A stretch of DNA of 64,000 bases. Source: Dysidea avara. Taxonomy: Eukaryota; Porifera; Demospongiae; Dictyoceratida; Dysideidae. Under the pieces are notes generated by a model, which was not told the origin of the DNA, ran no database searches, and saw only the letters and a program-made list of their open reading frames with translations. The position numbers and the translations under genes were made by a program. Location: contig NC_089281.1 of NCBI RefSeq assembly GCF_963678975.1, forward strand, positions 3,931,277 through 3,995,276, given 5' to 3'. Positions 1,380-48,975 of the stretch are shown piece by piece (positions within the stretch are counted from its first letter, which is position 1; every line of letters begins with the position of its first letter).

Positions 1380-1571
1380 TGTCTAGAACTGACTTAGTAT
1401 TTAGAATACTATTACGTAATGTACTATAGTTAGAACACGTGTGTACGGTGTGCGTTTTATGTGCTTGTAATCTAGCGTATGTCACGTGCTTTAATTCTAT
1501 CAGTCGTCAACGTGGTGATCCCGACGAGTCGCTCCTATCTCTAGAACCTGGCCTATTTAGTCTTACAGACA
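1380..1571 (+). repeat. 5' LTR of the BEL/Pao element
   Basis: 192 bp, starting TGTCTAG and ending CAGACA; the same length as the 3' copy at 6805-6996 and differing from it by two transitions. It should hold the promoter; no clear TATA box was assigned. Confidence 0.92.
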
Positions 1572-1730
1572 TTGGTACAGTGACAGGAATTCGCCCGAGA
1601 ACACATTAACCCCAGCCAAAGAAGTCATTGTACCGTGGCAAATCGTTGATAACGGTACCCGTTAAGGCAAGCCACGAACCCATTTGATATCGTCGTTGTT
1701 TTTGTGTTAATAGTAGATCACGCTGGATAG

Positions 1731-2697
1731 ATGGAGCAATTGTCTCGCCATCAAGCCTCTCGCAAAAGTACTAAAGTCCCACGTGACACGACTCTACAAC
1801 AAGATCGATGACCTTGTTGACAAGGAAGTGGACGAGTACTCTATCGCACTACTCACTAAAGCCATGGAACAACTCCAGGACAAGTGTGACAAGTTAAACA
1901 AAATTAGATTATTACTCTAATTGATGAGCCTCAAGGGCTGGAAGACTACATTATGGAATCTGAGGACCTTAAGGATGATATTGCAGACAAGTTAACAAGA
2001 GTTCAAACCATCATAGATATACAGAAACAGCCAAAGAACACCAGTCCACCAACTAACCAACCACAAGTGAGTCAGTTTGTAGATAGTACAAGTCCACCAC
2101 AGTTAGTCACCACAGTATCAGCAGTAGTGAATCACAAATAAGTGCAAACTTACCATCTGATACTAGCCCACCACAGTTGGATAGTGTAGCAGGGGCAAAT
2201 AATATTGCAGTGTCATCAAATTCAGTAACTACAACATTGTTAACACCTCCTGTTCAGGTTCAGCAAACCAGTAAATTGTGGTATCCTCCCTATCACTGCC
2301 AGAAACCCTTGTTATTAGCAATGTTGCACCACCACCTTTGATACCACTTGCCCCCACCACATCCATCACAAGTTTAGCCAATCATCAAAGTTCAGTGTTG
2401 CTGTCAGTACCTGATGCTAGAAGCTTGTACACGACATCAGTGGATCACTTTACACATCATAGTCTGTTTCCCACTTCAGCAGCTGGATATCACGCCAGCA
2501 CCCAACAGTTTGCCACTAGCCGTCTACCAAAGCTGTCCTTGCCTACTTTCTCAGGTGACCCCTTAACTTGGCAGACATTCTGGGATTCATTCTATGCTGC
2601 AATTGATGCCAATCCCAACCTCAGTGGGATACAGAAGTTTAATTATCTTAAGGCACAATTGCAGGGTAATGCCCCCAACACCCAATTCTTCGACTGA
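1731..2697 (+). pseudogene. Broken gag region of the BEL/Pao element
   Basis: An ATG at 1731 opens a short frame that stops within about 80 bases. Gag-like segments follow in changing frames: a charged helical piece near 1790-1915, a frame at 1953-2141, a piece near 2105-2280, and a frame at 2278-2697. The last ends with the conserved BEL gag motif LPKLSLPTFSGDP (DUF1759 type) and a WQTFWDSF-like sequence. Directly after this the coding passes to the protease region in another frame. The rest of the capsid region and any CCHC zinc knuckle are absent. Frameshifts plus an internal deletion make gag non-functional as read. Confidence 0.75.
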
Positions 2698-5600
2698 TGT
2701 TACAGGGCTTCTTACACCGATATCACCTTGTAAAGCTCCAGAGACAGTATCTACATGCCTACTTAAAACCGCTGTTGCTCCTGTTATAGCTGGAAACATC
2801 AAGACCATGGCAAATATTCTGTTTGATGAAGGTGCCCAAAGGTCATTCATATCTACAGAGATGGTCGAAGAACTAGGCATTTTACCCACTGGTACAACAG
2901 ACATTTCCTTGGCATCATTTGGCAGCACATCTAGATTACAACAGAAACTTGGAGTCACCACAGTGAAGATAGAAACCATCAGTGGAGAACTAATTTCTAT
3001 ATCAGTGCTCATTGCACCAACGATTGCTGCTCCAATTCAGAACGCTGTTCCCATGTCTGTCAGCGCTATGCCCCATTTGAGTGGACTCAAGCTAGCTCAC
3101 CCGATTACATCAGACAAGAACTTTACAATTTCAATCTTGATTGGAACTGACTTCTACTGGGAATTTGTACAAGATACAATTGTTAGAGGAGATGGTCCCA
3201 CAGCTCAGGAGTCCAAACTAGGCTATCTCTTGTCAGGGCCATTACCGTACTCATTCTCTCAGACAGCCACTTCTATTCTACTGCAAATGGCTTCCACGGT
3301 AACACCTGAAGAACCAAATCTTGAGAAATTTTGGTCCATTGAATCAGTTGGTACAGATACCAACACATCAGCTGTAGACTCTACGTTCCTTCACACATAT
3401 CAAGAGTCTTCCATCACTCAAACGCCTGAGGGCATGTATATAGCAAGATTTCCATGGAAAGAGGACAAACCCTTCTTACCCTCAGACATCAACATTTGTA
3501 AGAAGCGAACAACCACATTGCTACAGAAACTCAGACAAACACCAGATCTACTAAACATCTATGACAACATCATCAAGGATCAAGAGAAGAGAGGTTTCAT
3601 TGAAAGAGTTGATGAAAATGATACTGCAGAACACATCCATTATCTATCCCACCGCGCAGTCAAGAAGGACTCTGCCACAACTCCCATCCGTATTGTCTAT
3701 GACTGTAGTTGTCGTGGTAACAGTAAGTCAGCTAGCCTCAATGATTGTTTGGTCACTGAACCTCCATTTTTGAACAACCTGTGTGGCATATTGATCAGAT
3801 TTCGTTGTCATGTTTTTGCTCTCTCAACAGATATAGAGAAGGCATTCCTGCACGTGAAGCTGCATCCTGATGACCGGAACTTCACCAGATTTTTATGGAC
3901 ACCTCCGTCAGAGAACTCAGACAAGTTTGCTATATACCGTTTTACTGTCGTTCCGTTTGGGTCATCTAGCTCACCATTCATGCTTGCAGCAGTGCTCGAT
4001 TTACATCTTAGTAAAGTTGGAACCCCAGTTGCAGAAGACATGAAGGAGAACATGTATGTGGACAACATTTTGTCTGGCTGCAACACGGAGGATGAGTTAC
4101 AAGTTTACTACAAGGAGTCTAGAGATCTTATGAACCAAGCAAACTTTAATCTCCGTTCTTGGTCATCCAATAGCTGCAGTCTTCAAGCAATCACAGCAAG
4201 GGACAAAACAAGCGACCCCAATCCAACCATAGGACTTCTGGGACTCAGATGGAATACCACCACTGACACGTTGTCACTTGCTCCAAGGCAGCTCTCACCA
4301 GCTAACACATTTGTTACCAAGAGGGATGTTCTACAAACTTCATCACAGATATTTGACCCCTTGGGTTTTGTAACACCTGTATCAGTCAAAGCCAAAATCT
4401 TACTTCATGAGATCTGGCAGACCAAGTTTACATGGGACGAACCTCTCTCGGAAAAGATCACAGATAACTGGCTTAGTATTCTCCCTGACCTGATGCAGCT
4501 ACCACAGTTTATCATTCCGAGAACTTACCTCTCTACACCAATTACATCTAATTGTTATCTATACGCCTTCTCAGATGCCAGTACTAAAGCATATGGTGCT
4601 ATCGTATACATCTGCCAGAACCAAGAGATTTCCCTAGTTATGTCAAAGTGTCGTGTGGCTCCAATCAAGACTGTTACCCTTCCTCAATTAGAATTGATGG
4701 CAGCTGTTATGGCTACAAGGCTTGTGCAATTTGTCAAATCAGCCATCCACTTTCAACATGATGATTCCTCCAGCCACATACATTTGTGGACAGACAGCCA
4801 AATAGTTCTCCACTGGATATACAAGTCACACCATCAGTCCAAGCCATTTATTTCACACCGTGTTACAGAAATTGTTGGAGTATTCCCAGCTAATTCATGG
4901 TCATTCACACCGTCTGGTGACAACCCTGCCGATCTTCTAACAAGGGGAGTTTCTGCCCAACAGTTTTTCTCATCAGAGTTATGGTTACATGGACCGCAAT
5001 GGCTGATATCCAGACAAGACTGGCCACAATGGGTACCAACTAATGCCCTACTACAACTGGTAGACGAAGACGAAGATTCTGAGAATACAACCTCAACTCC
5101 CCAGGGCAGTGATGAGACCATAGTAGGTATTCATAACATTGTTGACATTGCACACATTAGTAGTATTAGCAAGTTGTTAGCCGTCACAGCATATGTGCTT
5201 AGGTACATTCATAATTCACGTAAACAACAACCACTGCTTAATGGTCCACTGACTGCAACAGAATTGAACAGTGCCAGGAAACATTGGATCTCCAGCAGTC
5301 AGTCCACTAGTTATTTGACTGAGCTTTCATACTTACCGAAGAAACAGGGTTCATGCCCTAATCTAGTGAGACAACTTCGCTTGTACTTGGATCAAGACAG
5401 CCTGATCAGATGTGGAGGAAGGATCCATAATGCTCCTTTGGACCAGTGTACAAAGTTTCCTTATTTGCTACCACCTAAGCATCCATTAACTACCATGATC
5501 ATCCAAGACACACATAAGAAGCTCCATCATGGTGGAACAGCTATTACTATGACAGCAGTTCGACAGGTTTACTGGATCCCCACCATTAGACAACGGATCA

Positions 5601-6811
5601 GAAGCATCTTGAGGAAATGTGTCGCATGTGCCAGAGCAATGGGGAAACCTTACAAGACTCCTGATCTACCTCCACTTCCCAAGACCCGTGTTGGATCAGC
5701 CAGACCATTTGCTGTAACGGGGATAGATTTGACTGGGACACTTTATGTCAAGGACCCTATTGGTGAGAGTAAAGCTTACATATGTCTTTTTACCTGTGCT
5801 AGTACAAGAGCGATCCACCTGGAAATAGTCACAGATTTGTCAACCGAAACCTTTCTGTTAGCCTTCAGAAGGTTTTCCAGTCGAAGATCTTTTCCATCTG
5901 TTATTCTATCTGATAATGCTTCTACATATCTTGCCGCCGCCGAGGAATTGAAGACACTGTTTGAATCCAATGACATCAAGGAAACCCTTGGACGTCAAGG
6001 CGTTGATTGGAGATTTATTCCAAAGCGTGCTCCATGGTATGGGGGGTTTTGGGAGCGTCTAATAGGACTGACCAAACAAGCTATCAGAAAGACACTTGGC
6101 AGAACGTTTATCTCCCTCCAACAACTACAGACAGTCATAGTAGAAGTCGAGAGTATGTTAAATGATAGACCACTCACTTATGTTAATTCTGATTTACAAG
6201 ACCCTCAACCATTAACACCATCCCACCTACTTTATGGTAGGAGAATACAGCAAGTTCCTCGCCCCCTCAATGATGATGAAGAAATCAATGATCCAAGTTA
6301 TGTTGACAGCATAGACCTCAGGAAAAGAGCAGATAAATTGACACAATTGATTGGACATTTTACCTCACGATGGAAGAAAGAGTATTTAACATCATTACGA
6401 GAATTCTACAAGAGCACCAAGCAGAGCAAGCAGAGTAAACAGATGATAAGTAAAGGGGATATAGCGATTGTACATGAAGACAATAAACCGAGATTACAGT
6501 GGAAACTAGCCATAGTTACAGACCTCATCAAGGGAAATGATGATCAAGTGCGAGCTGCTCATATAAGAACAAGCACTCATGCAACAACGAGACCAGTTTC
6601 CAAATTATATCCTCTGGAAGTACAGGACATAGAACAGAATGGCCCTGCCATCACAGAAGATGTTGAATCACCGACTAATAACATAGTTAATGAAGATGCC
6701 CAGAACACAGCTACAATTTGTACACGCTCAATGAGAGCAGCTGCTTCTAAGGCAATCCAGAAGATGAAAGAATGGAATGGTTTGCTCGGCCCGCCCCCGG
6801 AGGATGTCTAG
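2594..6811 (+). CDS. BEL/Pao pol polyprotein (protease, reverse transcriptase, RNase H, integrase)
   Basis: 1,405-codon open frame without interruption; real pol homology starts near codon 55 because the first codons overlap gag in another frame. Domains in order: a retropepsin-like DUF1758 protease with ILFDEGAQRSFIS (about 75-87); reverse transcriptase with STDIEKAFLHVKL and the active-site box YVDN near 487 (the BEL-type variant of YVDD); RNase H-like segments FSDAS and WTDSQ; an HHCC integrase zinc finger (HKKLHH, then CVAC); an integrase core with GIDLTG, SDNAS and FWERLIG; and a C-terminal DUF5641-like region. All catalytic acids appear present. The stop codon lies seven bases inside the 3' LTR. 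Function (family knowledge): cDNA synthesis and chromosomal integration of the element. Confidence 0.9.
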   Translation: MLQLMPIPTSVGYRSLIILRHNCRVMPPTPNSSTDVTGLLTPISPCKAPETVSTCLLKTAVAPVIAGNIKTMANILFDEGAQRSFISTEMVEELGILPTGTTDISLASFGSTSRLQQKLGVTTVKIETISGELISISVLIAPTIAAPIQNAVPMSVSAMPHLSGLKLAHPITSDKNFTISILIGTDFYWEFVQDTIVRGDGPTAQESKLGYLLSGPLPYSFSQTATSILLQMASTVTPEEPNLEKFWSIESVGTDTNTSAVDSTFLHTYQESSITQTPEGMYIARFPWKEDKPFLPSDINICKKRTTTLLQKLRQTPDLLNIYDNIIKDQEKRGFIERVDENDTAEHIHYLSHRAVKKDSATTPIRIVYDCSCRGNSKSASLNDCLVTEPPFLNNLCGILIRFRCHVFALSTDIEKAFLHVKLHPDDRNFTRFLWTPPSENSDKFAIYRFTVVPFGSSSSPFMLAAVLDLHLSKVGTPVAEDMKENMYVDNILSGCNTEDELQVYYKESRDLMNQANFNLRSWSSNSCSLQAITARDKTSDPNPTIGLLGLRWNTTTDTLSLAPRQLSPANTFVTKRDVLQTSSQIFDPLGFVTPVSVKAKILLHEIWQTKFTWDEPLSEKITDNWLSILPDLMQLPQFIIPRTYLSTPITSNCYLYAFSDASTKAYGAIVYICQNQEISLVMSKCRVAPIKTVTLPQLELMAAVMATRLVQFVKSAIHFQHDDSSSHIHLWTDSQIVLHWIYKSHHQSKPFISHRVTEIVGVFPANSWSFTPSGDNPADLLTRGVSAQQFFSSELWLHGPQWLISRQDWPQWVPTNALLQLVDEDEDSENTTSTPQGSDETIVGIHNIVDIAHISSISKLLAVTAYVLRYIHNSRKQQPLLNGPLTATELNSARKHWISSSQSTSYLTELSYLPKKQGSCPNLVRQLRLYLDQDSLIRCGGRIHNAPLDQCTKFPYLLPPKHPLTTMIIQDTHKKLHHGGTAITMTAVRQVYWIPTIRQRIRSILRKCVACARAMGKPYKTPDLPPLPKTRVGSARPFAVTGIDLTGTLYVKDPIGESKAYICLFTCASTRAIHLEIVTDLSTETFLLAFRRFSSRRSFPSVILSDNASTYLAAAEELKTLFESNDIKETLGRQGVDWRFIPKRAPWYGGFWERLIGLTKQAIRKTLGRTFISLQQLQTVIVEVESMLNDRPLTYVNSDLQDPQPLTPSHLLYGRRIQQVPRPLNDDEEINDPSYVDSIDLRKRADKLTQLIGHFTSRWKKEYLTSLREFYKSTKQSKQSKQMISKGDIAIVHEDNKPRLQWKLAIVTDLIKGNDDQVRAAHIRTSTHATTRPVSKLYPLEVQDIEQNGPAITEDVESPTNNIVNEDAQNTATICTRSMRAAASKAIQKMKEWNGLLGPPPEDV

Positions 6812-6996
6812 AACTGACTTAGTATTTAGAATACTATTACGTAATGTACTATAGTTAGAACACGTGTGTATGGTGTGCGTTTTATGTGCTTGTAATCTAG
6901 CGTGTGTCACGTGCTTTAATTCTATCAGTCGTCAACGTGGTGATCCCGACGAGTCGCTCCTATCTCTAGAACCTGGCCTATTTAGTCTTACAGACA
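6805..6996 (+). repeat. 3' LTR of the BEL/Pao element
   Basis: 192 bp, nearly identical to 1380-1571. The pol stop codon (6809-6811) lies inside it. Only a short purine run (ggagga) precedes it, so the polypurine tract is weak. Confidence 0.92.
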
Positions 6997-7678: not shown

Positions 7679-10600
7679 CTTATTACCAACCAATAACATT
7701 GGTACTTCTTGATCAGAGATGTTGTTTAATAGCTGCTGTCTCCAATTAGCCACCGCACGTAAACTTATCCTGTTTGGATCCGTCATGTCAAAAACAATGA
7801 GTACTACACTTGCACCACGATAGAAACCCTAGGAATAAAAACAGTGAACAGGTAATTATAGTGTACACCCTACATTTTTTGTGTATATTTATACACGTAT
7901 TTACTGTAAATGAAGTTATTGACTTATTAACAGCAAGCACATAATTGTGTAAGTCCTTGATAATATTGAGTATGGTAATTGAACTTTACTTTTTTGTGAT
8001 AAGAATGTTCATTATTCCCCAACCTAAAAATTAATGAGATTTGAATGTACTGTATGCCATGACATGTTATTGGTGCAATCAAGCCAATTCGAATTGTTTC
8101 CTACGAGTCTGTACACTAATTTAAATTTCTATTAGACAACTAATTGACTACATATAATTATTGCCTTTAACTCTAAAATGGCTACAGCTACAGGCTTTAT
8201 TTTGAAAATCAAACATTGCTATCTGCTTTTGAATACTGTGGATGCAGTTCATGAATTTTGGATTTACTTTTCAACTATTGTTTCAAATACCATGGATCTG
8301 ACTAACTATTTTAATATTACCATCATCGTAGCAAAGTTAGTATCAGAATAATTGCACTAAATCTACTACAACATACAAAAGCATACTCACTGGTGTAATC
8401 CAGTTATATGTTTCTTGTCCTGCAGTATCCCACACAGCCAACTTGATATTTTTATGCCTTGTGACATGATGGGCATAACATGTGCCATGTGTACTACCAA
8501 CCTACATTATGTACCAAGTTAAGGAATACGTATTACACATTTCAGCGGTCTATTTAGAGTTTCATATGTAGGACACTTGACAAGCAGGTAATTTTGGTGA
8601 GAGAAACATCAGTATAGCAATTTTGGCAATGAATATGGATCAACACATACATACAAACCTTTTGTAAAGCCAGGCAGCCAGCCATAGGCCGGCTGTGGGC
8701 ACGTGCCTGGTTAGCTGCAATCGTTTTTGTAAAAGTGTGTTTGTGTCTGTGTCTCTGTGTGTGCATGTGTACCTACTTATCTACTCATGTTTGTCCGTAC
8801 ACACTCACGTGAGCAAAATTGTTAAATGGTAAAAGCAGATTACACATAAGAAGTAAAAGCGAAATGAAGTCTGTATATTAAACTTCTGCATAGGTAAACT
8901 TTGTTCTGAGGTGGTTTTTGTGATGGTCTGAAATCTGGGTGTGGTGACGGGTTTTACAGGTGTTTGTTGACTGAAAAACAATGGTGTAACCCTTGTAGAT
9001 TACCAGGAATAACCTATCCTTTCGAGTTTTGAAAGGGGCATATCCCTTACATATGCATGCAAACAAAAATGAAGAGCAGCCTTGAGGTTTTGTCGAAAGA
9101 ATTCGTAGGAAAAAACAAACAAAAAAAAAACGATAGTCAAACTATGAACAGTTTAGAAGATACTTCTGTGTATAATATGTAGCAAGTGCTTGGCAATGCA
9201 TAGCAACATAATTGAAGAATTACATGAATTACAAAATCCGAAATTACAATAAATTATGTATTATTGCAAAACCAAAAACCTATTGGCTAAAATAATAACA
9301 TAGCTCATTCCAGATAAGCTGGTTAGCTACATGGACGTCTGGTTTTTAGAAGTAGACTTGTTTTAAAATTGAAAAGCTGCCTGATCAGCAACTTCCACAA
9401 ACCATAAATGCACTATACCTAGCCACCACTTTCAACATAATCTCTACACTTTGTCAAATGAAGTCATAATCATGTGGTCAAATGCTCAAAGTTTACCCTT
9501 TATTATACATTAAACTGAGTTGATATCTGCTTTTTCTCTACAGCACACTTTCTCCATCACAAAACATGAAAATTATGACAATATGGTACATAAATGCATA
9601 TACAAACTAGTAAATGGTCATGGGCATTAATAAGGATACAGTGACAGGTGATAACTCAGTAAAGGCGTTCTTCAAAAATCTTTCAACAAGTGACGTCTTT
9701 CCAACTCCACTGTTACCAAGCAAAATTAATTTTAGACTGATCATATCAGGAAGTGGAACAGCAGACTACATAACATACAATTTAATTGTAAGCATACGTA
9801 CATATATAGTTGTTACTAGCTGCATTGATACGCAAAAAAAAGAACATGATACTGTAATTCTCAAATTATTTACTGTATAATCTAATTAGCTAAGTATATG
9901 CTGTGGTGAAGTTTCAGTCTCATATACCAAGAAATTACAAATGCAATGATATACATAGTTGAGACTGGCACTATTGTATTAACCACGAATAGGCAAATCT
10001 ATCATTTTCCTTCACTGACAAAGTCAGTGAAGAAAGTCTGACTTGTGTTGACCACATACTATTTCAATGAAACAAAAAAATTTAGTAGGTAAATAAGATG
10101 ATATTCAGGTTTAAAATTTTTTCATCACAAACAAAGCATTTAGACTGCACTAATCAAACTGTTGCACTACAAGGAGTCTGGAACACTAGTGATGACTTGC
10201 ACTTGGACCACTTACTGTACCGTTAAACATGTAGGTGGGTACATACTAGCCTCCGACCCATTAGTGAGTCCTGTGTTAGCACATTTTATGTAGCTACTGG
10301 ACTCCACCAGGAAAGTTGCATAAATAGTTTTATATTGATCAATTGTCAACATTTATTCCATATAGCCATTTTATGACAGCCAAGCAAACACTATGAAACA
10401 CATATAGCATGACCCCATTGGCAGATAATATACATATCATTTGTGACCAGATTTCAAAAAGGGGTCTTCCAAACACATCCAATTCTATGAATTTGGAAGA
10501 CCATAACTTAGTTGCCAAACCACATGCAAACCTCAAATTTTCTTCATCAATTAACCTATGTTGGTTCTCACCACAGCCCAAATTTCAAGCCAATAGCTCA

Positions 10601-13600
10601 TTGTAATCTGAAGTTATGAATTATCAAATGTGGTATATTGGATGTGTGTGGAAGACCCCTTTTCACAAATCCAGTCACATTTCATCATTAATGGCTATTG
10701 TTATACTAATGATGATTAGGAATCAAATTTGACCACAACCTCTGGCAAGTTACTGTACTAACTATCTATTTCAAACAAATAATACATAATATAATTATCA
10801 CTTTCACACCTCAAATCAAAGGAACCACCAGGGCTACATTTCATATGTAGCCCAGTTAGCCAGGCTACATACAAAATGTAGCCAGGCTACAACTGGGCAC
10901 TAATTATATAGATGTTGAGGCTGAAATTGATTGTGGGGATCGATTAATACTCATGTAATTAGGATGCACGACTTAGATTTTGCCATGAAAACCACTCAGA
11001 CAGAGAACGTTTTGTTATCCTCGCCATTCTACAAGTTGAAAAACGTTGGGCTAAGGTGAGAACTAGCGCTATAGCTTATTCACCAATCGTTTCCACACAT
11101 TTTCGAATACGGGCACACCCCCATCACGAAGCTACCACTCTGCACGAACTAACCACTCTACAAACAAGCTTACCTACAGTATCTAGTCCTTTAGTAAGCT
11201 CCTTACTTTTCCATAAACAATTCAATAGCACTGATTAAAAGAGTAAACCCACGTAACCCTGTGATATCTCTACGATATGTCCGTTTATCATAACCGAAAT
11301 GTACTAACTGCTGACCCATAATCGAAAATTTTAGGTATGCATGTATAATACATCCAGTGGCTGCACTCGTGTTGGCTTGGGTGATTGATCGCCCTGTACA
11401 GGCTATCAGCCTAATAAGTGTTACATATTAGCTGTAACACGGGGCATTCAGGCTTTGCCTGATATGTATGCCTGAGGGCCGCAGGCCTGAGGGCATTCGG
11501 GCATACATATCAGGCAAAGCCCTCATGCCCATGTTACAACTATTACTTGTACTAGCTGTATATTTCCTTAAATCTATATTTTACTTTATACGTAGGTACA
11601 TTATACAAAATGAATCTTTTTCCTTTAACCGTACAAATACATTTTCAAGGGAACTACTGATTTGTACATAATAAACAAATGTACATACATAAAGTACGTA
11701 CTTTATTCAGCACTGAAATATACACCATTTCATGATCATCAGCCACAGCTCCAGGAAGCTCATTTCCCTTAGTGGTGATAGCAGTCGTTGTCGTCACTGT
11801 CCCTGACTGTTTACTTCCAGAAGCAACAATACCAGAGTCGCAGGCAGTATCAATTATAGTGGGTGACTAAATTAATGATATACATGTGTACAATAAGTAT
11901 TTGAATATCATAACAATATGTCTTGTCAACAGGACACATCAGTTTCAGCTTTAGTATCCACATTAAAATTGCTCTATTAACTTTAGATTGCAAAAGAGAC
12001 CGTCTTTGGTGGACACAAAAGTGTGTTAGCATGTTCATCTACTGTAATACACACATTGATTTTGTGTCCAAACCATGCATAACTGAATGGACTGTTTTAA
12101 GGAACACCATAATGTAGTGTAAGCAAGTGAGTGACACCATTATAGTCACCTTAGCCAGTTTTTCTGTAATTTAAGGAAATAATGTAGTTTTAATCATACA
12201 GTACAATAGTACTGTATAGTAGGGACATCGAAGGTGTGGGGGCAATCCGTGCTATAATGTAGCCCAAAAACCTGCCGCGATTTTTCCTCACAATGACATG
12301 ACAGTATTAGTTGGGTAAAACCAAGCTCAAAAGTGTCTTCAGATCGACCTGAAACGTTTCCATCAAGATGTAACAGAATTATTATTTTTATTTATTCAAT
12401 GGAATTTTCTACTGCCTGCCTGCCTGCCTGATGCCTTCAGTCAAGCGTAGCGGAAAACTGGCTACAGCTACAGCCCTAATTCTTTTGCAGAAACGTTCCT
12501 AGCTTGCTTAAGAAAAAACCTTTGCTATAATGATAAACATACAATGCTTGCACTATTGTCTTTAGTTACTTTTTATCCTTCTTTACCAAGGCCATCAGTC
12601 AAGGTTCTACTGTTGAGTGTAATAGACTACAGTACGGCTTCCATCTACCAGTGTATATTGCATCAAACTATTTGAATACATGTGGTTGCCGGTCACGTAT
12701 GTCGCAGTTGATATCAAATAGTGAGAGCAACTCGTGGCAAACTATATAGCATTGTGTAAGTCAATAGATATAGTTTATTTAGTAACAATGTTAAACCGAG
12801 TCAGGTCATTCAGGTCCTGGTCTGACCCCATGTGCTAAATTAAATGTGGACGTGTTACTACACGTCATAGCGTAGCCCTGCTTCTTTCATGAGCCATGCC
12901 CACTTATGTAAATTACTGTCTGTAGACAACATATGGTAGCCACACCCATTCATCAGTCTGTAGGTATGCACGAATCCATGTCCATTATTGTCTGCAGGCT
13001 TATGTAGAGCCACACCCACTTATCAGTTGTTATTGCATGAGTCAATCTAGTATAATAGTGCTGTGAGTAACTCTTAAAGTATTGTGACTGGTTTTGTGAA
13101 AAGCAGGCTATTTAGTGGTCATGAGCTTGTAATCAAAAAACTTCACAAACAAGTATAAGAAAAAATTAGGAATTTTAAATTAGATTAGGGACAGTGTATA
13201 GTGCTGCAATAAAAAGTACTGAAATAAGCTGGATTGGAGTAATACGTAATGTCCAAATACTGTAAAACAATAAGAAGTGAATATCCCGACTGTGCTATAC
13301 TTCTTATTGCAGCACTATACACTGTCCCTACTCTAATTTAAAATTCCTAATTTATTCTTATACTTGTATAAATACAAATCCTGTATATTGCATTGTAGCT
13401 ACAATCCATGGAAGGTTGAATAATGAAAACCAGAACTACTTGACATTTTCTGTGCATGTGGAAAAGACTCTTTATCCAAAATCTAGCCACATTTTAATGC
13501 TAAAATATATATTTGGGCAACATAGATTAAATTGAACTATAATACAATGAAATTACTACATACGTACGTATGTACGTACGTATATGGATACCTGGTAGAG

Positions 13601-15534
13601 AAAGTGTGCAGTAAGTCTATTAAGCACATTTTAATTGACTCAAAAAGTTTACATGTGAATGACAAAAACAACTGCTGTACTCAAAACTGCACTCAGTTTC
13701 TCAGTAAATCAATAACATGAATAACTGGTACATGTACTGTACAAATATATTACCTCATTCAAGTCTGTTAAGTTACTTCTACAGTGACAGTGAGGAGTAC
13801 ATGCAGAGTGTGATCCAGTCTGAGAATCCTGTTGTTCAGTTGAAACATCTTCGTCCAATGTAAAAAGCTGATGAGACTAGAAGAGCACATATATCAAACA
13901 CATATACTATGGCACAAACAACATGCAACTACGAAGTTGGTGGTCTTGAGGACAAGGCTGGTTTGGATTGTAATGTGAAAATTCTTCCAAACTGCATTTC
14001 AAGCATACTAGAATCACATCTATTATTACTAATAATGTTATTCTCTCTTTTCTCGTATAAAGTCACATTCAATAAACACTTGTCTCAATTATAAGCCAGA
14101 GCATTTCCTGGACATATTTGGAAAATAAATGCCTGGTCTCAAATAGAAGTCCGAGCTATTAATGGAGTCAACTGTTACTTGCTTTAATCCTTTCACCTGC
14201 TGCTATTTTCCAAACTTATTAACATTAAATTTAGAGCCATTAAGGTGCTACTAGTAACTACGTGAGTAGTTCGTGTACATGCAGGTAAGTATCACACAAC
14301 TGTTTTCCAATCATTTTAGCCATTCACTACACTAGTCAACACATTGTATACAGGTTCTCTAAGCTTACCATTACAATAATGGTCTTCTACCACAACTTCA
14401 ATACCAGAAATCGCTTAGACCTATCCAAAATAAATGCCTGGTTTCAAATAAAGGCCCTATTTGTTTACAGGCCTGGTCAAAAGTGCTGGGAACAAGGAAA
14501 TACAGTATACAAAGACCTGGGTCTGGGCCTTAAAAGCGAAATCATAATTACACCATGTTTCACACTATTCCAGGAAATCCATGCAGCTCGTTATCAACTT
14601 GAGTTATTAAACCCGGTGTACTATACATACAACATGAGCTTGGCATTTTGCCTGCACCTTATAATGAGCTAGAATAATATGTCTGTCAAACAATATTCTG
14701 AACTGTGATAATCATCCCAATAGGTAAAGTACATAAAAGATATGCGTTTGTTATACATAGGCCCAACAATAGCTACCTGTTTTAAAATATATATATAAAT
14801 CCCACATTCTTTTTTTGTGAATGCTTTCTTTTCTATAAATAGTTAGATCCAACATCGGACTATGATACAGATGTAGTTATGTAACTCACTTTTCCAGATG
14901 CTGCCGGTGATGGTTGTTTTTGTACGGTTACGAGCTCGTCATTGTTGATAGATGATGATACATGTGATGTCTCTTGTCCAGGAGATACCTTAAGAACACG
15001 GTTGTCAGCTGGCACAGAATGCATAGGTCTTCTTTCCACTGGTGTCGGCAGGGAAGAAGTGAGTCGGGTACATTGTATGCATTGGTCTGGTTGTGATTGT
15101 TCCTCAGACTGCACAATATCTGGTAAACCAGTCTGAAGACTGACAAATCTTCCTGTCGGCTGCCTCTGATTACCGTGTTGTCTACAACCTGATGACCAAC
15201 TGTTTGATCTAATACCACCAGACTGCTGCAAATCGTGAAATTTAGTCTCTAATTTGGTTACCAAATCAATGTGTGGTTGATAGTGTCCTGTTTCCTGCAA
15301 AACTTCAATGAAATCATTCAGAGCTGGCAGTCCTTTGTTCGCTAATGCCTTCAGATACAACTTCATTGGTTTTTGGGCATCTCCTAAGCTTTCAAGTTCG
15401 TTCACTTCATTCGCCGTTAGTCTATTTCTCGCGTGGAGTAGTAAAATAATTTCATTGACATTAATATGACCCACGATCGCTGGGGATAACTGCTGCAACA
15501 CTGCATTGGCGATTTGATCCTGCGATGTTGTCAT
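7679..15534 (-). CDS. CARD-like domain fused to a Rab-like small GTPase (3' end missing)
   Basis: Six exons on the minus strand: 15534-14890, 13876-13754, 11866-11702, 9765-9640, 8501-8391, 7828-7679. All have GT/AG borders and all introns are phase 0, giving 440 codons so far. Start: the first ATG after an in-frame TGA. Residues about 5-95 form a six-helix death-fold sequence resembling a CARD (LLLHARNRLTANEV, then DFIEVLQETGH). Residues 100-310 are a Ser/Thr/Gln-rich linker. A GTPase domain begins near 319: P-loop GNSGVGKTSL (328-337), WDTAGQETY (377-385, retaining the catalytic Gln), FYRGA (Rab F4-like), and VGNK at 437-440. The G5 box and tail are not in the window. It may act as a membrane-trafficking switch recruited through CARD contacts (inference). 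RASEF/Rab44-type large Rabs are the nearest architecture I know, but those carry EF-hands, not a CARD. Alternative: two genes, with a Rab start at ATG 9744. Confidence 0.72.
8506..9639. other. CARD-Rab intron 4, no gene seen
   Basis: AT-rich intron. Near 8666-8700 there is a short palindromic motif around 'gccagccataggccggc' that recurs at 54328-54350. No exon, RNA or complete transposon was recognised. Confidence 0.4.
11270..11545. repeat. Dispersed repeat ending in a foldback hairpin
   Basis: The left part (gatatctctacg, then 'taggtatgca...ccagtggctgcactcgt' and 'gattgatcgccc') matches the order of motifs at about 36150-36310 in an ASPG intron, so both are copies of one family. It ends in an imperfect inverted repeat at 11434-11537, with arms containing GGCTTTGCCTGATATGTATG and its complement. 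Lies in CARD-Rab intron 3. Confidence 0.6.
12200..12500 (+). repeat. Dispersed repeat, family with the CAGTAC..TAGTACTG start
   Basis: Starts with a small palindrome (cagtacaatagtactg) followed by 'tagtaggga'. It contains 'aaaccaagctcaaaagtgtc', a (tgcc)n run at 12413-12430 and 'cttcagtcaagcgtagcgg'. The same ordered motifs occur at 41252-41790 and 57860-58500. In CARD-Rab intron 2-3. Confidence 0.6.
12786..13060 (+). mobile_element. Left-end fragment of the 34114-34790 hAT-like family
   Basis: Begins 'ttaaaccgagtcaggtcatt' and contains 'ctttcatgagccatgcccac' and 'tgtctgtagacaac'. These follow the left half of the complete element at 34114-34790. The right end and target duplication were not found. 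Confidence 0.5.
13149..13367. mobile_element. Foldback MITE (ACAAGTA family)
   Basis: Inverted arms of about 65 bp: acaagtataagaaaaaatta at the left pairs with the complement at 13348-13367, and 'gggacagtgtatagtgctgc' pairs with its complement near 13304-13323. Related ends occur at 41957-42234 and 49798-49830. No coding capacity. Confidence 0.7.
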
Positions 15535-15747: not shown

Positions 15748-15880
15748 TAGTCTCGCGTGCCAGACGGTTTGTGTGGGGGCGGCAAATAAACCTGTTTATT
15801 TACCAAACGGTTTGTGTGGGGGCGGCAAATAAACCTGTTTATTTACCGCCCCCACACAAACCATCTATCACGCGAGACTA
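15748..15880. mobile_element. Short TIR element with 9-bp target duplication
   Basis: Ends tagtctcgcgtg and cacgcgagacta, flanked by gccacgccc at 15739-15747 and 15881-15889. The inside has two direct copies of a unit starting ggtttgtgtgggggcggc, then an inverted copy, so the element folds back on itself. A 9-bp duplication suggests a Mutator-like mobiliser (inference). A degenerate 'tagtctcgc...gagacta' also occurs near 34632. Confidence 0.7.
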
Positions 15881-16290: not shown

Positions 16291-17560
16291 AAATCGGTGA
16301 ATACTATATTATATTGTTTGTGATTTTAGCCAGACTGATTACAAGAGTAATGCGGCTATTTTTATATATATAAGCTGTAATGAAATCAGTTGTATAGGGC
16401 TGTAGGATTTTGATACTTTGATATGAACAAAGAGTCCTACATTAATATATATCAACTCGAAGTTTGCAATAGTTCATTGTTGTTCATTCTCTCTTCACTA
16501 AAGTGTTGTGTTGTTCAGTGATGGTTACTTTCTTCATAAGTGCAGGAGCATGTAGCCGCAAAGGGTCTATAGGTATACGTACGTCTACATGCAGGTATTG
16601 GTCAAGAGCAACAGGACATCCAGTCAAGATGTGGGTTGGAGAACTTGACAAAGGGCACATTTAGGGTTAGTATTGATAGCTAGCTTCATAGGAGTTGGTA
16701 GAGTATCACGTAGCAAGAAGGACAGCTGTTCGTTTCTCAGGGAGGCCATACATCAATTTCTTCCACAAAGGACAATCTTGCTCCAGAGTGACATTGTCTA
16801 AAAATATATTTTGGACAGTTAGTTAATGGTAGAATTTTGATTCCCAATAATCAATGTGAGTACGATATGTAAATTATGACATGCATGGTTCGGCAGAGTG
16901 CGGAACGTTGGCAACTGAAGCTTTAGCAGCAGATAAAGAGTTAAGGACAGTGGAAGAAACATCTGGACTGTTGGCTAGTTCAAATATCACAGCTCTACAA
17001 TCAGTGGGTCAACTGACCACTCAACAGCCAGAAAATATGAGAGTTTAGCTTAGTGACTGCTTCAGATGAGGTAAAAAGGGGAAATCATCATATCCAGGTG
17101 AATACCATTCCAGGAATGCAATTTCGAGGAAGGTTCAACCATCTCTTAACAAACCCCTATGATTGCTGAGTATAATAAACCATATCCGAGGACCATATCA
17201 GTTAACAGTCAGCTCCCAGCGGAGCCTAGCTAGAAAGCTACACCGAAAATGATGAGCTACAAGAGAATAAACTATAACAGTATAAGAGAAATGTAGCACT
17301 ATGAAGCACTTAAGAGTACACTAGGCCAGCTGCTTTAACAATTATGACCATTTAGTTTTACATTAACCACAAAATTCCCTCTGATCATAAGAGCATAAGC
17401 GCTTATAAACAAGCTATATACAATTGATAAGCGCCCTGCGCGTTAAAATGGCGTGTGTAGTTTCATAGACGATATACGTTATACCGGTTATACGTACGCA
17501 GTAGTACTAGTAAGAAACGGTAAGTAGCTGTCTACATATGACGTACGTGTCAAGTTCATC

Positions 17561-19189
17561 ATGCTCAGGTGCAATCACGAAAGAATGGCCACGCCCACTG
17601 CTATAATCAGAACAATGGAGTGTAAATTGTGCCACAATCAGAGTGAAGTGTCTGTTACTAGTACTTGCTGTGGCCATGCAATCTGTAAGTGTTGTCTAGA
17701 AGGTACACAGAAAGACACTTACAACGTTTGCCCAATTTGCCTCAGCAAGGAATTTTCATTTTGTGAGGTTTGTACTAACAAGGACAAAGGCTGTGACTGG
17801 CAGGGTGAAATGAGTGAGATTGCCAATCATCTTGCAAGTAAGGATGGTTGCCAATTTGAAGAGGTAACCTGCTCAAATGATTGCAGTATAGTGCTGCAAC
17901 AACAATGTTTACCCAATCATGTTGAAGATGGGTGTCTACGTCGTAGGGTTGACTGTCAATACTGCCACATTGTTGGAGAGTGTCAGTTTATAGAGAATTA
18001 TCATAAAGAACAGTGTCCCAAGTTCCCCGTATCCTGTCCCAACAAATGCTCAGATAGTATACCTCGTGAGGACATCGGCAAGCACAAAACGTCTTGTCCA
18101 CTTGAAGAAGTTACCTGCACTAACAATTGTGGAACAATTTTACAACGATGTTACCTATCTACCCATGCCAAAATAGGTTGTCTGTATCGTAAGGTTGACT
18201 GCAAACATTGCCATGTTACTGGACAACATCAGTTCATTGACAGTGAACACAAGGAGCAGTGTCCAAAGTTGCCAGTACCTTGTCCCAACAAGTGTGAGGT
18301 TGGAAAGGTCCCAAGAGATGATGTTGAAGAACACAAGAAGATGTGCTCCCTGGAGCTAATCCATTGTGAGTATCATGAGTTGGGTTGTGAGGAGAGAGTA
18401 GCTCGTAAGAATCAGACTGAACACAACAAAGAGAAAATGGAGGAACATTTGTCTTTTATGAAGCAAAAGTTGTCAATGACAAATCAGGAACTCACAGACA
18501 CCAAACAACAGCTAGCTACAGCTTGTCATGATCTTAAAAAAGCTCAAGAAGAGTGTACTACACTAGTAGCCAGTACTGAGGCAACACTAACTAAACTACA
18601 AGCAAAGATCACTGAGATTGAAACTGCTTCTTACAACAGGATCGTTGAGTTAGAAACAAAATTATACCACAACACACAGCAATTTGAAAGCATACTAACT
18701 AATCCAGATATAAATTGGCTGGCAACACTGTACTCCCGTTCATCAAAGTTACCATCAAGTGATCAAGTTTTGCCAGTGTTTGTAAAAATGTCTGAATACA
18801 TGAAAAAAAGACAAGGTAAAATTCACTGGTACAGTGAGCCATTTTATACTCACCCAAAAGGATACAAGCTGTGTTTCCAGGGATGTTTAGGTACCGATCA
18901 CTTATCCGTTGGGCTACTGCTAATGAAGGGACCTTATGATAATCTATTAATGTGGCCACTGGTGGGAGACTTTGAGGTGAAGTTGTTGAATCAGAGGAAA
19001 AATAGTGAACATTTTCTAGTGGCCGGTGACTCTCAGGACAATGGACGTAAGAGGGTCCTCATGAAGGAGAAAAGTAGTTATTTTGTTTGGTTTAACGATA
19101 CGTTTATTTGTCATGATGATCTCAGTATGACTACTGAAGCAGTTCAGTATCTCAGAAATGATACTATATTCTTTTATTGTAAAATGTAA
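17561..19189 (+). CDS. TRAF-family RING/MATH adaptor, probable E3 ubiquitin ligase
   Basis: Single-exon frame of 542 codons. An N-terminal RING finger at about 21-61 shows CKLC, CCGHAICKCC and CPIC zinc ligands. Four to five TRAF-type Cys/His zinc fingers follow at about 70-285 (repeated EQCPK.PV.CPNKC units with HK..C spacing). A coiled coil spans about 290-375. A MATH/TRAF-C domain at about 410-542 has FYTHPKGYKLC, HLSVGLLLMKGPYD and the closing YLRNDTIFF. This is the classic TRAF layout; family members bind receptor tails as trimers through MATH and transfer ubiquitin via RING. The ATG at 17585 (agaATGgcc) has the stronger context and could be the true start. Head-to-head with the CARD-Rab gene and tail-to-tail with PPP1R36. 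It cannot be assigned to a numbered TRAF from sequence alone. Confidence 0.9.
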   Translation: MLRCNHERMATPTAIIRTMECKLCHNQSEVSVTSTCCGHAICKCCLEGTQKDTYNVCPICLSKEFSFCEVCTNKDKGCDWQGEMSEIANHLASKDGCQFEEVTCSNDCSIVLQQQCLPNHVEDGCLRRRVDCQYCHIVGECQFIENYHKEQCPKFPVSCPNKCSDSIPREDIGKHKTSCPLEEVTCTNNCGTILQRCYLSTHAKIGCLYRKVDCKHCHVTGQHQFIDSEHKEQCPKLPVPCPNKCEVGKVPRDDVEEHKKMCSLELIHCEYHELGCEERVARKNQTEHNKEKMEEHLSFMKQKLSMTNQELTDTKQQLATACHDLKKAQEECTTLVASTEATLTKLQAKITEIETASYNRIVELETKLYHNTQQFESILTNPDINWLATLYSRSSKLPSSDQVLPVFVKMSEYMKKRQGKIHWYSEPFYTHPKGYKLCFQGCLGTDHLSVGLLLMKGPYDNLLMWPLVGDFEVKLLNQRKNSEHFLVAGDSQDNGRKRVLMKEKSSYFVWFNDTFICHDDLSMTTEAVQYLRNDTIFFYCKM

Positions 19190-43262: not shown

Positions 43263-45256
43263 CTACCATGACCCGATCCACACAGTGTTAGTCATCTGTC
43301 CTTCAGCATTTCGACCTCCCAGTACAATTATTTCATTACTGATGCTAATGGCTGCTGGTCCACCTCGGGCTAGTGGAAGATATCCCACAACATCCCAGCG
43401 ATGATTGATTTTGTTAAATGCATGAATCTCTTTGGTACGGGTGACTTTATCTTCTCCTACCCATTTAGCTCCTCCAATAATTAACAAATGTCCATTAATG
43501 CAAACAGCAGCTGCATGATACCATGGGATGTCTTGGGCTACATTCCAGTCCAGTTGATGTCTTACTAAATCATCCATGCTGGCAGTAAACATTGCAAGAG
43601 AACCTTTTGCACTTTGATCAAACCCTCCCAGCAAGTAAAGCTTGTCACCGACTGCAACAAATTGCTGCCAGCAATGTGGTTGTGGTAGGTCTCCGCAAGT
43701 GTACCACTGTCCTATGGTACTATCAAACATCTCAGTAGAGGCTAATGTTGTATACTTATTCCTACCACCAGCAACTATAAGCTTTCTCTGACAGGTAGTG
43801 GCGCTAGCAAGGTGTCTTGGTGTAGCCATTGTAGTGAAATTCTCTAGTGTGTAACCATCTGTTAATCTATAAATTTTACTAGTGACTTCTCCATGATTGT
43901 CCTTTCCTCCTACAGTGATCAAGTGGCCATTAAATGCTGCCAAAGCAAAATGTGAATAAGGACTATCAATTGATGACCATGAATTGTTGAATACATCATA
44001 AATGTCTATCCTGCGTAATACATCCAGTGTGTTGTCATAACAACCAGCCACATAAGCTCTACCAGTCAAATATACTGCTGTGTGGAGTACACGACCTACT
44101 GGTGCAAGAGATCCCTCCTCCCAGGTTATGTCTGTACATCCAGTGAATGGAGTATTACCAGATGAAATGCTGTGTTGCTATATATAATAAAATACATGGA
44201 TATATTTGATAATTATTTTAATTACAGAATTACACATGCAGAGAATAATCTATTATTCATGTTGTGTTTGTACCCAACTATCTCTGTTTAATTATGTCCT
44301 AGCTCATGATCATTTCGCTGAACAATTGTGCACACATCAGCAATTATCATTTAATTTAGGCTACTAAGAGTTATACAAGCAAATGCAGGAGTGCAAACAA
44401 TGTCTTGGCTGGGCTATCTGGTTTCACTGGACCAGCTCAAGTTGAGTGGGAAGAAACAGCTTAGTAAAATTTTCAAAGTTGATATCTATATAAAGTTCTC
44501 TGTTTATATCACAACAATGTTTTTAATTTCACTAGCCTTTTATTGAATGTTTTTCATCAAATTTTCTGCAAAACATAGTCCACACGTACAGGTTATTACC
44601 ATTTCCCATTATGGCAATCATCAAGCTGTTCAATTGAAATGTGGTTGATATACGTTTAGGAAATGCAGTAAATGGCATATTTGACTGTAAAGGAATATGT
44701 ATACTATATTATGTTAAATTCAGAAAAGTTCCATACCCAGATGGTGACATAATCCACAAGTTACCCATACTGGCAACATAGACTCAGTTTTACATTGCAT
44801 ATAAAATTATCTGACATTGTATTTACTTCATATACCAACAATCAGGTTGAGAGATTTCAAATGTATAAGTAGGTCGGATGTGCATTGGTAAGTTCTGCCT
44901 AGGAAGGAGTAGAGGAGTGAGTGTGCATCATTATATATTTCATTAGGGACCTGCTGCTGAAATAGCAGGGAGTCAGAAACATGTTAGCTACTAAAACTTA
45001 AATGTAAACAATCCCAGACCAGACTTGATCCACAGACAGCTTGCAATTGGTTTTTCCTTCAAAATATATTATAATAATGATTACAGTAGCTAAATGTGCT
45101 CAAAGATATCTGAACTATTGTCAGGTGTTTGATACTTGCTTCATTAATTGGGGTATACAGTACTTTGCTCTGTACTTATGAAATTGAACTTGAATACTCT
45201 TTTTTATGATTTGTGACTAGCTAAATCACTAAGTTAATTATAACCTGTTGTTGTTG

Positions 45257-45287
<31 letters not shown>

Positions 45288-48051
45288 TGATGTGAAGGTT
45301 CTGATAATGGCTCCTGTTCAGCAACCCACCATTTCATTGGACTTATCCTGACATAACCACTCTTTTGACTGTTGATCTCTATTGTTCTTTTAACTGTAAC
45401 TGAGACTTGATGTGCTGAGGGACGATCCTTAGGATTATCATCCAGACAAGAAATTGCTAATAGTTTTATATCCGTGGCATCTTCTGTCATCATATCTAGG
45501 TATCTATGCCGTCTTTGTGACTCTGATAGATATATTCTCCCTCCAGTGTCAGGATCAAACTGTACCCAGGATACTGGTTGGGGCCACACTTGGGTTATTG
45601 TGTAAAGAATTACTCCACCATAGGAGAATATGTCCAAGGATAAACCATAAATCGGGTTATCAGCTAATGATTCAGGAGGCATGAAATCTGTTGTACCAGG
45701 GGCTTTGGTCATTGTCTGGTTATCTCTATTTTGTACTATTTTGGCAACACCTAAGTCAGTAATTTTGGCCTGAAGACAGTGGCTCAACAGTATGTTATTA
45801 GGAGTGAGATCACGATGTACAATTGGGGGATTTCTACTATGGAGGTACCTTACACCAAGGCACACTTCATCCAATATAGTTAGCTTTACATTCAGGGGAA
45901 TTTTCTCATGCATTTCTATCAGATTCCTTAGGCTAAGTTCCATCTTCTCCATCACCATAACAGGTAACCTTGACTCATCCATGGTGGGGTAGTACACTCC
46001 TAAATAACACACACTGTAGTTACTAAGTGCACACACATGTGTGCACACATCACGGCATGTACACACAGATGCATACGTATACCAGCACTGCTTGAAGTTT
46101 CTTAGTTTACTACAGTGGTATATCCCCAGTATATGGAACAGTTAATTGTTTGTTATTTTAGTAGTTTTTCAGTAAACCCGCATTCACTGATGTTTACTGA
46201 GAGTTTAAAACTTAGTAAAACAATTATGTTCCATATGCTTAAAGTTACTGACATTTTACTATCAGTATAACTACAGTACAGCAGCTTAACAAATTAGTAA
46301 ACTAAGAACCTTCAAGCAGTGCAGTATGTAGCAAAGTAAAAGCAAAGTACTAGTTGTGTGGCATGGCTTTTGCAGCACAGTGTTGTGTACATATTCAGAC
46401 ACTTGAGTCAGCTACAGTACTATACCATGGCCATTTAGCTAATTCTCCTGGGGAAGTACTATATAGTAACCTTCAGTGCCATATGTCATGAACTGTGGTT
46501 GAGGAACCTGAAGTCCCACATAATATATAGACCCCAACTCCCAGTAAAATTATATGGCTACATGGGCATATGCTTCCTGCTTCCTCCAGAATACAAAGAG
46601 TACAGTATAATATTGACTGGAGCAATGTGAGTAAAGTTTCTTTCTTCAGGAAACAACATCAGTATAAGTATATAGCTGGAAGTCACTGGCATCACCTGGG
46701 ACTTTGAGATTACCAGGCCACAAATGATTGGTGTTTTGCCAAACTAAAATCCTTTGTCCAGTATTAACTAACAGCAGATTTGCCAAACTTTTTTTCTTGC
46801 CAAAATCCTATTGTGACAAATTCGCCAAAGTTTCCTCCCATCAATCTTTCCTGCTATATGATATGCATCAAATATACAAAAATCTTTTAAGAAAAATTAA
46901 GGGAAACCACCATGATGATGATACTCTCTCACAGATAGAGGTGTAAACAGCAGGCACATGCTTTCCTCTGATAACAGGCTCTCATTGATGATACAGTTGT
47001 GACCTACTGCTGCCTGACACCCATTATATGTATGATATACAATCACTACATCTACACTACACAAAAGCAAAGCATTTTGTTGCTGTACGTTAGGTCTAGC
47101 CAGAAAAATTGGATCCTGTGTTTCACCCAGGTACTATATATAAAGGAGTTAGTGTAGGAAATTTTTCTTGGCAAGGGCTATCACCTTGCAGGAGCATTCT
47201 TACAGTTGAAGGTGGACTCCTGAAGTCCTATCTGTTATGAGAGACATGGGAAAATGGCATTTCAGTGCTTCTCTATGTATATAGCTCTTGATGATACAGT
47301 GGCGTGGATGCTTTCCCTAGTAAATACCTAGGCCACATGGCCATTTACAACTAGAAAAATGATGTGAGTATTCATAAATACACAAACACACACACACACA
47401 AAGCCAAAGCAAATTAGTCTCTTGCAGCCATGCGAAGCACAGCTATACCCAAAATCCTACATGGACCTTCTTCACCCATTATGTGAGACATATTGGTTGC
47501 TTCCCCAGTTAACACCAGGTAGCCATTGATGTTATGTTGTACAGCTGGGTGGGCTGCTTCCCCAATTCAAAGAAACCAGGTCCCCATTAAGCAAACGGGG
47601 ACCTGTTGGCCTGACACACACACCTATACACACACACACACACACACACACAACTATACACACACACACAAAGCAAAGCCTTTGACTGCCATTGGCACGG
47701 TCTCGCCTACCCAGTGAACCAGCACTGGGCACCTGTGTGCTACTCAGGCGTTAGGAGTCAGCACAGGCAAATCCTCCGTGGGCAGGACCAGTAACCCACA
47801 GGAGGCTGTGCCATGTCTCACAGGTGAAGGTGTGGGCACCTGAGCATGAAATCTCACCTGGACCTTCACCTACTATATGAGACATGGACAGTTGGCATTT
47901 GCTTCCCCAGTTGGCACCAAGTCTCCGTTTTAACAGCTGGATAGACTAGGAGTAAAGTTTGTTGCTCAAGGAAACAACAACAACACCAAAGTGGGCATAG
48001 TAACCGGGAATCAAACCTTGAACATTTCGATTACCAGGGCAATGCTCTAGC

Positions 48052-48789: not shown

Positions 48790-48975
48790 CTCACATAAAT
48801 TAAAAGATCCGTTACTGGGGCGTGGCTGCAGTGTATAGGGGCTCGCGTAATACAGTTCACACGTGATCTCAATGTCGTCTCTCACCCTGCTGGTCATGAT
48901 GTGCAGGTGTCTAATGCAGACCCGAACAAGACGTTGAACAAGCTGAGGGGATCAGATCGCAGTATGGATTGAAAG

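Follow-up and report, generated by a model that had tools for sequence, protein, structure and literature searches.

Probable CARD-Rab fusion genes form a five-member family in the sponge Dysidea avara

Known multidomain Rabs and CARD-bearing GTPases

Large Rabs, namely Rab44, Rab45/RASEF and Rab46/CRACR2A, combine a long N-terminal regulatory part with a C-terminal Rab domain. A comparable layout is found in the sponge Dysidea avara (Demospongiae, Dictyoceratida), where a gene (gene A) on a 64,000-nucleotide stretch of the genome (the window, C10:3931277-3995276, C10 being its contig) is predicted to carry a CARD at the N-terminus and a Rab-type GTPase at the C-terminus, and belongs to a family that very probably consists of true CARD-Rab fusions. 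According to the accessible part of PMC8303950, the N-terminus of large Rabs is made of EF-hands and a coiled coil, whereas the CARD-Rab proteins have a CARD and a long linker; neither "CARD" nor "death domain" occurs in the text of that paper. In turn, Pfam scans of the window protein and of the paralogous proteins P0002, P0121 and P0122 listed no EF-hand.

Among the guanylate-binding proteins (GBPs), large GTPases that form a family of their own, zebrafish Gbp4 resembles CARD-Rab in bringing together a GTPase and a CARD in one protein. As reported in the accessible sections of PMC4932187, entry of Gbp4 into the Asc speck requires the CARD and caspase activation requires the GTPase activity, so that both parts matter for inflammasome output. 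In Gbp4, however, the CARD is C-terminal, whereas that of CARD-Rab is N-terminal and is followed by a small GTPase of the Rab type.

Each half also has its own nearest relatives. The CARDs of RAIDD, CED-3 and caspase-9 are the best matches of the family profile, with CED-3 and Apaf-1/caspase-9 entries leading the fold lists, but these domains sit on caspases or adaptors and not on a GTPase. Rab12 is the nearest solved GTPase to one paralogue (gene E) among the matches listed, and another (gene C) is called Rab-17-like by NCBI; ordinary Rabs, in contrast, have no N-terminal CARD, and switch I diverges in CARD-Rab (VGSTHGT, IAVDHN). Within the same sponge, NLRC receptors with CARD-NACHT-LRR architecture (20 reported in the consulted portion of PMC12909245) are possible partners, although CARD-Rab itself lacks NACHT and LRR. 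That D. avara genome paper treats NLR types, and the accessible main text contains neither "Rab" nor "GTPase".

Two protein searches were evaluated through the best 120 of 252 matches (7,991 candidates scored) and the best 120 of 4,942 matches (7,986 scored); such searches miss relatives sharing no five-residue words. Family proteins among the matches listed were P0001, P0002, P0121, P0122 and P0125, and the CARD-only search returned one protein, P0001 (120 candidates). P0003-P0007, P0123, P0129 and P0140 by sequence, and P0132 and P0140 by Pfam, were GTPases without a CARD match. No CARD-Rab protein was found outside Dysidea-like sequences among the matches listed, which is a weak test because sub-threshold CARDs do not appear there. 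The literature search likewise gave no paper on a CARD-Rab protein among the papers listed, judged by title and abstract start, one return being on sea anemone immune genes; the preliminary description of this locus had known of none either. Multidomain Rabs and CARD-GTPases are already known, and it is their CARD-Rab combination that is undescribed within the literature and protein searches. Public annotation does contain two members of the family, but their names give no hint of the CARD.

A five-gene family on one contig

The CARD of the window protein (113 residues) matches its own genome at 11 places, and the best five all lie on the minus strand of C10 (Table 1, genes A to E). Downstream of every one of these five CARD exons, on the same strand, are Rab exons of the same family. 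This recurrence, together with two paralogues that NCBI each models as a single gene, argues that the pairing of CARD and Rab parts is more than chance. The five copies descend from duplications rather than from five independent events, so that their number shows only that the two parts stayed together.

The exon borders are shared as well. Each of the five CARD exons ends in phase 0 at a GT donor, in agreement with the NCBI model for gene E; in B, C and D this donor was read from the sequence in this analysis. The P-loop exon of every member starts right after AG, also in phase 0, with S/T-x-x-P/Q-L-P-N/D-M. Gene D is readable from its CARD through to a final RRKCC, and P0125 is the reading frame of its exon 1 on another contig. 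P0001, encoded on a contig of 2,320 bases that extends into intron 1, is a relative of exon 1 (77% identical over the domain). In gene C, the CARD exon (C10:3876066-3875539) lacks an ATG at the start position of the other copies.

NCBI gene models usually rest on RNA-seq, and predicted models join the CARD and Rab parts in single genes for both E and C. P0122 (isoform X1, 527 residues) and P0121 (X2, 494 residues) are products of gene E (C10:3506900-3516600), called "uncharacterized" by NCBI; both contain the full CARD exon, then the linker and the Rab part, and end in RQRRCC. Compared with gene E DNA up to within exon 6, five of six pieces of P0122 match at 95-100%, and the sixth, at 65%, overruns an exon end. 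P0002, annotated as "Rab-17-like isoform X2" (350 residues), belongs to gene C. It runs from the first 42 CARD residues, by way of an inner donor (GAAGAC/GTAAGC), over two exons of linker into the Rab part and finishes with CCKKCEIM. On C10 its exons fall some 55-78 kb below the window, with four pieces matching at 100%. No NCBI model of gene A was among the matches listed in the protein searches.

The claim that CARD and Rab lie in one gene is thus supported by the models of two paralogues. It could still be argued that the two parts are adjacent genes, one with only a CARD and one with a Rab, which were copied as a pair and yield separate mRNAs in the window copy, since the joining of gene A exons was read from genomic DNA alone, the distance from CARD to Rab is large in gene B (about 27 kb) and gene C (about 13 kb), and isoform X2 of gene C drops most of its CARD. 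Nevertheless, the phase-0 donors behind all five CARD exons, the phase-0 acceptors in front of all five P-loop exons, the NCBI models of E and C and the likeness of window exon 3 to the modelled gene C linker make two separate genes highly improbable. A separate start at the ATG that opens the Rab part (9744), which the preliminary description had named as a refuting observation, is also disfavoured: the seven codons ahead of it read S/T-x-x-P/Q-L-P-N/D in all five paralogues and change silently (Leu as CTT, TTA or CTA; Pro as CCT or CCC), behind a phase-0 acceptor in each.

The N-terminal CARD

Taken singly, none of the family members reaches the cut-off of the Pfam CARD profile (23.9 bits). 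The window protein gives an E-value of 0.034 with all 440 residues and 0.0017 (18.8 bits) with the first 105 residues alone, gene C reaches 21.1 bits, and no CARD match was listed for B, D and E. When a profile of the five paralogues and one relative was compared with solved sequences, 11 matches up to E 10 were returned and 10 of them were CARD proteins. They comprised RAIDD (5e-4, the only one below 0.001), CED-3, seven of the caspase-9 type and ARC; one designed protein completed the list. A previous four-member profile had given nothing significant against the PDB (CED-3 0.054, RAIDD 0.077, a designed TPR 0.1, ParB 1), and the result improved once all six domain sequences were included. 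The profile check of the N-terminus therefore turned out in favour of a CARD for the family, though not for any single sequence.

Two further lines of evidence agree. Three other places in the genome, matched by the window CARD at 1.9e-4 to 2.1e-4, exceed the Pfam CARD cut-off in their own right. Three more (one on C13, two on C14) match it better, at 2.8e-6 to 2.2e-5, and are absent from the genome-wide Pfam CARD list, for which 150 of 331 candidates were scored. The CARD model of gene E has block pLDDT (predicted local distance difference test) values of 76-96 over residues 1-120. Foldseek ranks 1-16 were all CARD-bearing entries; the full-length gene E fold search was filled by GTPases and is uninformative on the CARD. 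The N-terminus might instead be another helical bundle, or a PYD, DED or death domain not tied to CARD signalling. Given that 10 of 11 profile matches are CARD proteins, that the first 16 Foldseek ranks bear CARDs and that three distant relatives in the same genome pass the Pfam cut-off, this is very unlikely, and the CARD-like character first proposed from the sequence can be retained.

A separate observation concerns the genome as a whole. At least 127 six-frame CARD matches with E <= 0.001 were found among the 150 of 331 candidates scored, compared with 39 CARD genes given in the accessible part of PMC12909245. CARDs may be under-counted in that paper, with the caveat that the matches were counted by exon and not by gene.

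The Rab-type GTPase and its C-terminus

Residues 323-440 of the window protein match Pfam Ras at 3.2e-30. The G1 box GNSGVGKTS and the G3 box WDTAGQE with its catalytic Gln are present in exons 4 and 5, and the best 60 of 876 solved-chain matches in one comparison, as well as the best 60 of 149 for gene E, are all Rab, Ypt or Sec4. The closest solved GTPase to gene E among the matches listed is Rab12 (1.2e-28). These results bear out the Rab-like GTPase with P-loop, WDTAGQ and VGNK that had been described.

The Rab family motif RabF1 reads IGVDF. It was not found in the family, the corresponding residues being VGSTHGT in the window, IGSTHET in B, IGSAHGT in C and IAVDHN in D and E. For the G4 and G5 boxes, gene C has NKSD and ETSAK and gene E has NKSE and EASAK, while the window copy ends at NK. 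The NKSE of gene E stands in place of NKxD and may alter nucleotide binding. Cysteine-bearing C-termini were read in E (RQRRCC), D (RRKCC) and C (CCKKCEIM); a candidate last exon of gene B ends in CIIM, at an E-value of only 0.023.

Exon structure of gene A and its linker

Gene A comprises six exons (Table 1), all of lengths divisible by 3, with phase-0 borders, GT/AG splice sites and 440 stop-free codons that place the CARD N-terminally and the GTPase C-terminally. Exon 4 shares 74% identity with the NCBI-modelled exon of gene C, and the borders of exons 5 and 6 agree with the paralogues. All six exons of the preliminary description hold, yet its gene model is incomplete: it breaks off at VGNK, so that the G5 box and the tail at the C-terminus are missing, and the description makes no mention of this absent 3' end.

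Table 1. Exons and intron 4 of gene A (window positions) and CARD exons of the five family members (C10 positions)
Feature	Position	Strand	Remarks
Exon 1	14890..15534	-	start codon, CARD (about residues 1-105), fast-evolving tail; phase 0 end at GTGAGT
Exon 2	13754..13876	-	linker, 41 residues; GT/AG, phase 0
Exon 3	11702..11866	-	linker, 55 residues; GT/AG, phase 0
Exon 4	9640..9765	-	P-loop GNSGVGKTS to switch I; conserved codons precede inner ATG 9744
Intron 4	8502..9639	-	U12-type signals: donor GTATCCTT, branch site TTCCTTAAC
Exon 5	8391..8501	-	switch II, WDTAGQE
Exon 6	7679..7828	-	FYRGA, IVFDMT, VGNK (first half of G4); donor GTATGT
CARD exon, gene A (window)	C10:3946810	-	
CARD exon, gene B	C10:3917425	-	
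CARD exon, gene C	C10:3876063	-	
CARD exon, gene D	C10:3499205	-	
CARD exon, gene E	C10:3516421	-	

The donor of intron 4, GTATCC, is kept in all five paralogues and the branch sites are similar. These signals are of the kind found in U12-type introns, which the minor spliceosome removes. Because of these signals, the GTPase of the CARD-Rab genes probably depends on the minor spliceosome. In the literature on U12 introns, no paper on the intron in this Rab was found by title or abstract start among the 8 of 56 papers listed.

In forms with a full CARD the linker is about 175-220 residues long. To place exons 2 and 3 of gene A, 18 phase-0 candidates (13 starts) from the DNA separating exon 1 from exon 4 were compared with the gene C exons, and exons 2 and 3 were the best matches to their gene C counterparts. 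For exon 3 the match is convincing, with 9 of 2,000 shuffles as good, partly through a threonine run; for exon 2 it is weak, as 70 of 2,000 shuffles reached the same level. No resemblance to the linker exon of gene E was found for either, 782 and 1,077 of 2,000 shuffles having done as well. The linker exons are the weakest part of the gene A model. In the structure model of gene E, pLDDT stays below 50 over 125-224 and 226-291, suggesting that its linker is likely disordered.

Selection on the two ends

Nonsynonymous (dN) and synonymous (dS) divergence was estimated by the Nei-Gojobori method; several dS values are near saturation, and D-E is the cleanest pair. For the CARD, dN/dS was 0.41/2.32 (A-B), 0.38/3.94 (A-C), 0.45/1.16 (B-C) and 0.14/0.64 (D-E), with a dN of 0.64 and saturated dS for A-D. 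The Rab exons gave 0.30/1.36 (A-B), 0.30/1.72 (A-C), 0.22/0.95 (B-C), 0.40/1.39 (A-D) and, over two exons only, 0.10/0.59 (D-E). In the tail of exon 1 the values were 1.07/1.75 (A-B), 1.16/1.79 (A-C), 0.93/1.09 (B-C), 0.54/0.89 (D-E) and 0.93/1.73 (A-D). Expressed as ratios for A-B and D-E, this amounts to about 0.18 and 0.22 for the CARD, 0.22 and 0.17 for the Rab exons, and 0.61 in both pairs for the exon 1 tail. Judged by these substitution rates, the CARD and Rab ends are under constraint and the exon 1 tail is little so.

The missing 3' end of gene A

Beyond exon 6, 21.5 kb separate gene A from the CARD exon of gene B. This stretch was searched with the G5 and C-terminal exons of genes B, C, D and E as queries, plus a motif scan, and no G5 or C-terminal exon of gene A was found in its readable part. 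The best C-terminal candidate, at 0.02 over 18 residues, was rejected. Run as a control on the DNA behind gene B, these queries recovered its G5 exon at 1.3e-13 and its last exon at only 0.023; because of the latter value, a missed tail exon means little. Exactly 5,000 bases adjoining the window (C10:3926277-3931276) read N, and the last exons of gene A, with the G5 box and prenyl tail, may lie in this masked piece or may be lost.

The stretch also holds a BEL/Pao long terminal repeat retrotransposon on the plus strand at 1380-6996 (Peptidase_A17 2.3e-44). Its end repeats of 192 bases, 1380-1571 and 6805-6996, are 99% alike, so the insertion beside gene A is probably recent. Such an element just beyond exon 6, together with the absence of a G5 or C-terminal exon from the readable DNA when the control readily detected the G5 exon of gene B, would suit a window copy in decay, in which the family fusion is real and the loss of the G5 and prenyl exons has left the GTPase truncated or absent. 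This account is doubtful, however. Part of the stretch is masked, the control found the last exon of gene B only doubtfully, and the exons sought lie 3.4 kb (G5 of gene B) and 7.9 kb (last exon of gene C) beyond exon 6 in the paralogues. Moreover, the six exons of gene A are free of stops and keep their splice sites, and dN/dS stays clearly below 1. A functional window copy is the reading we favour, with fair rather than strong confidence.

Proposed mechanism

CARDs are docking modules of proteins in cell-death and immune signalling, and Rab GTPases are switches that normally act on vesicles. CARD signalling and Rab membrane traffic are usually wired through several separate proteins. In the CARD-Rab family, the features that can be read at the sequence level are the domain content and order, the shared exon structure, the constraint on both ends and the cysteine tails of C, D and E. 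From these, we infer a membrane-anchored, nucleotide-switched CARD adaptor, a mechanism to which we give about even chances. A C-terminal lipid, presumably attached by prenylation, would put the Rab domain on an endomembrane, the predicted anchor motif having been read in C, D and E and not in gene A. GDP/GTP cycling with guanine nucleotide exchange factor and GTPase-activating protein partners would set when and where the protein sits and clusters. The tethered CARD could then bind its counterpart in a caspase or in a NOD-like receptor that bears a CARD, and on that membrane would seed or regulate a signalling oligomer. The CARD itself may be switched on and off by splicing, as the truncation after 42 residues in isoform X2 of gene C suggests. 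In the literature consulted, zebrafish Gbp4 is the nearest functional precedent. The connection between CARD oligomers and vesicle traffic that the preliminary description suggested is plausible as a hypothesis.

ARC is an inhibitory CARD protein, and its place among the weak profile matches would suit another role, in which the fused CARD is a decoy that caps CARD oligomers and damps membrane signalling in the manner of CARD-only inhibitors. The gene C splicing that removes most of the CARD would fit such tuning. The better profile matches are, however, recruiting CARDs (RAIDD, CED-3, caspase-9), and a decoy is unlikely. A broader version of the adaptor can be offered only tentatively: the Dysidea lineage may possess GTP-switched, membrane-tethered CARD nucleators, in which the Rab cycle, and not ligand binding by a receptor, sets the site and time of oligomer formation, a vesicle or phagosome serves as platform for caspases or NOD-like receptors, and CARD-free splice isoforms represent the off state.

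Kept through at least four duplications with both ends constrained, the fusion offers a direct test case for whether membrane identity can gate the assembly of death folds. A further suggestion is that animals which branched off early have CARD architectures in addition to the NOD-like receptors usually counted.

Neighbouring sequences

Visual inspection showed a GTTTGTGTGGGGGCGG-type stretch in inverted copies just upstream of the gene A start codon (about 15750-15880); they may be a small mobile element or a promoter feature. A TRAF-like open frame (17528-19189, plus strand; zf-TRAF 1.4e-27, MATH 6.3e-17) runs divergently from gene A about 2 kb away, and a control region shared by the two is possible. 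Farther along the window, open frames with Kelch repeats and protein kinase similarity occur on the minus strand at 43263-44177, 45221-46141 and 48403-48951.

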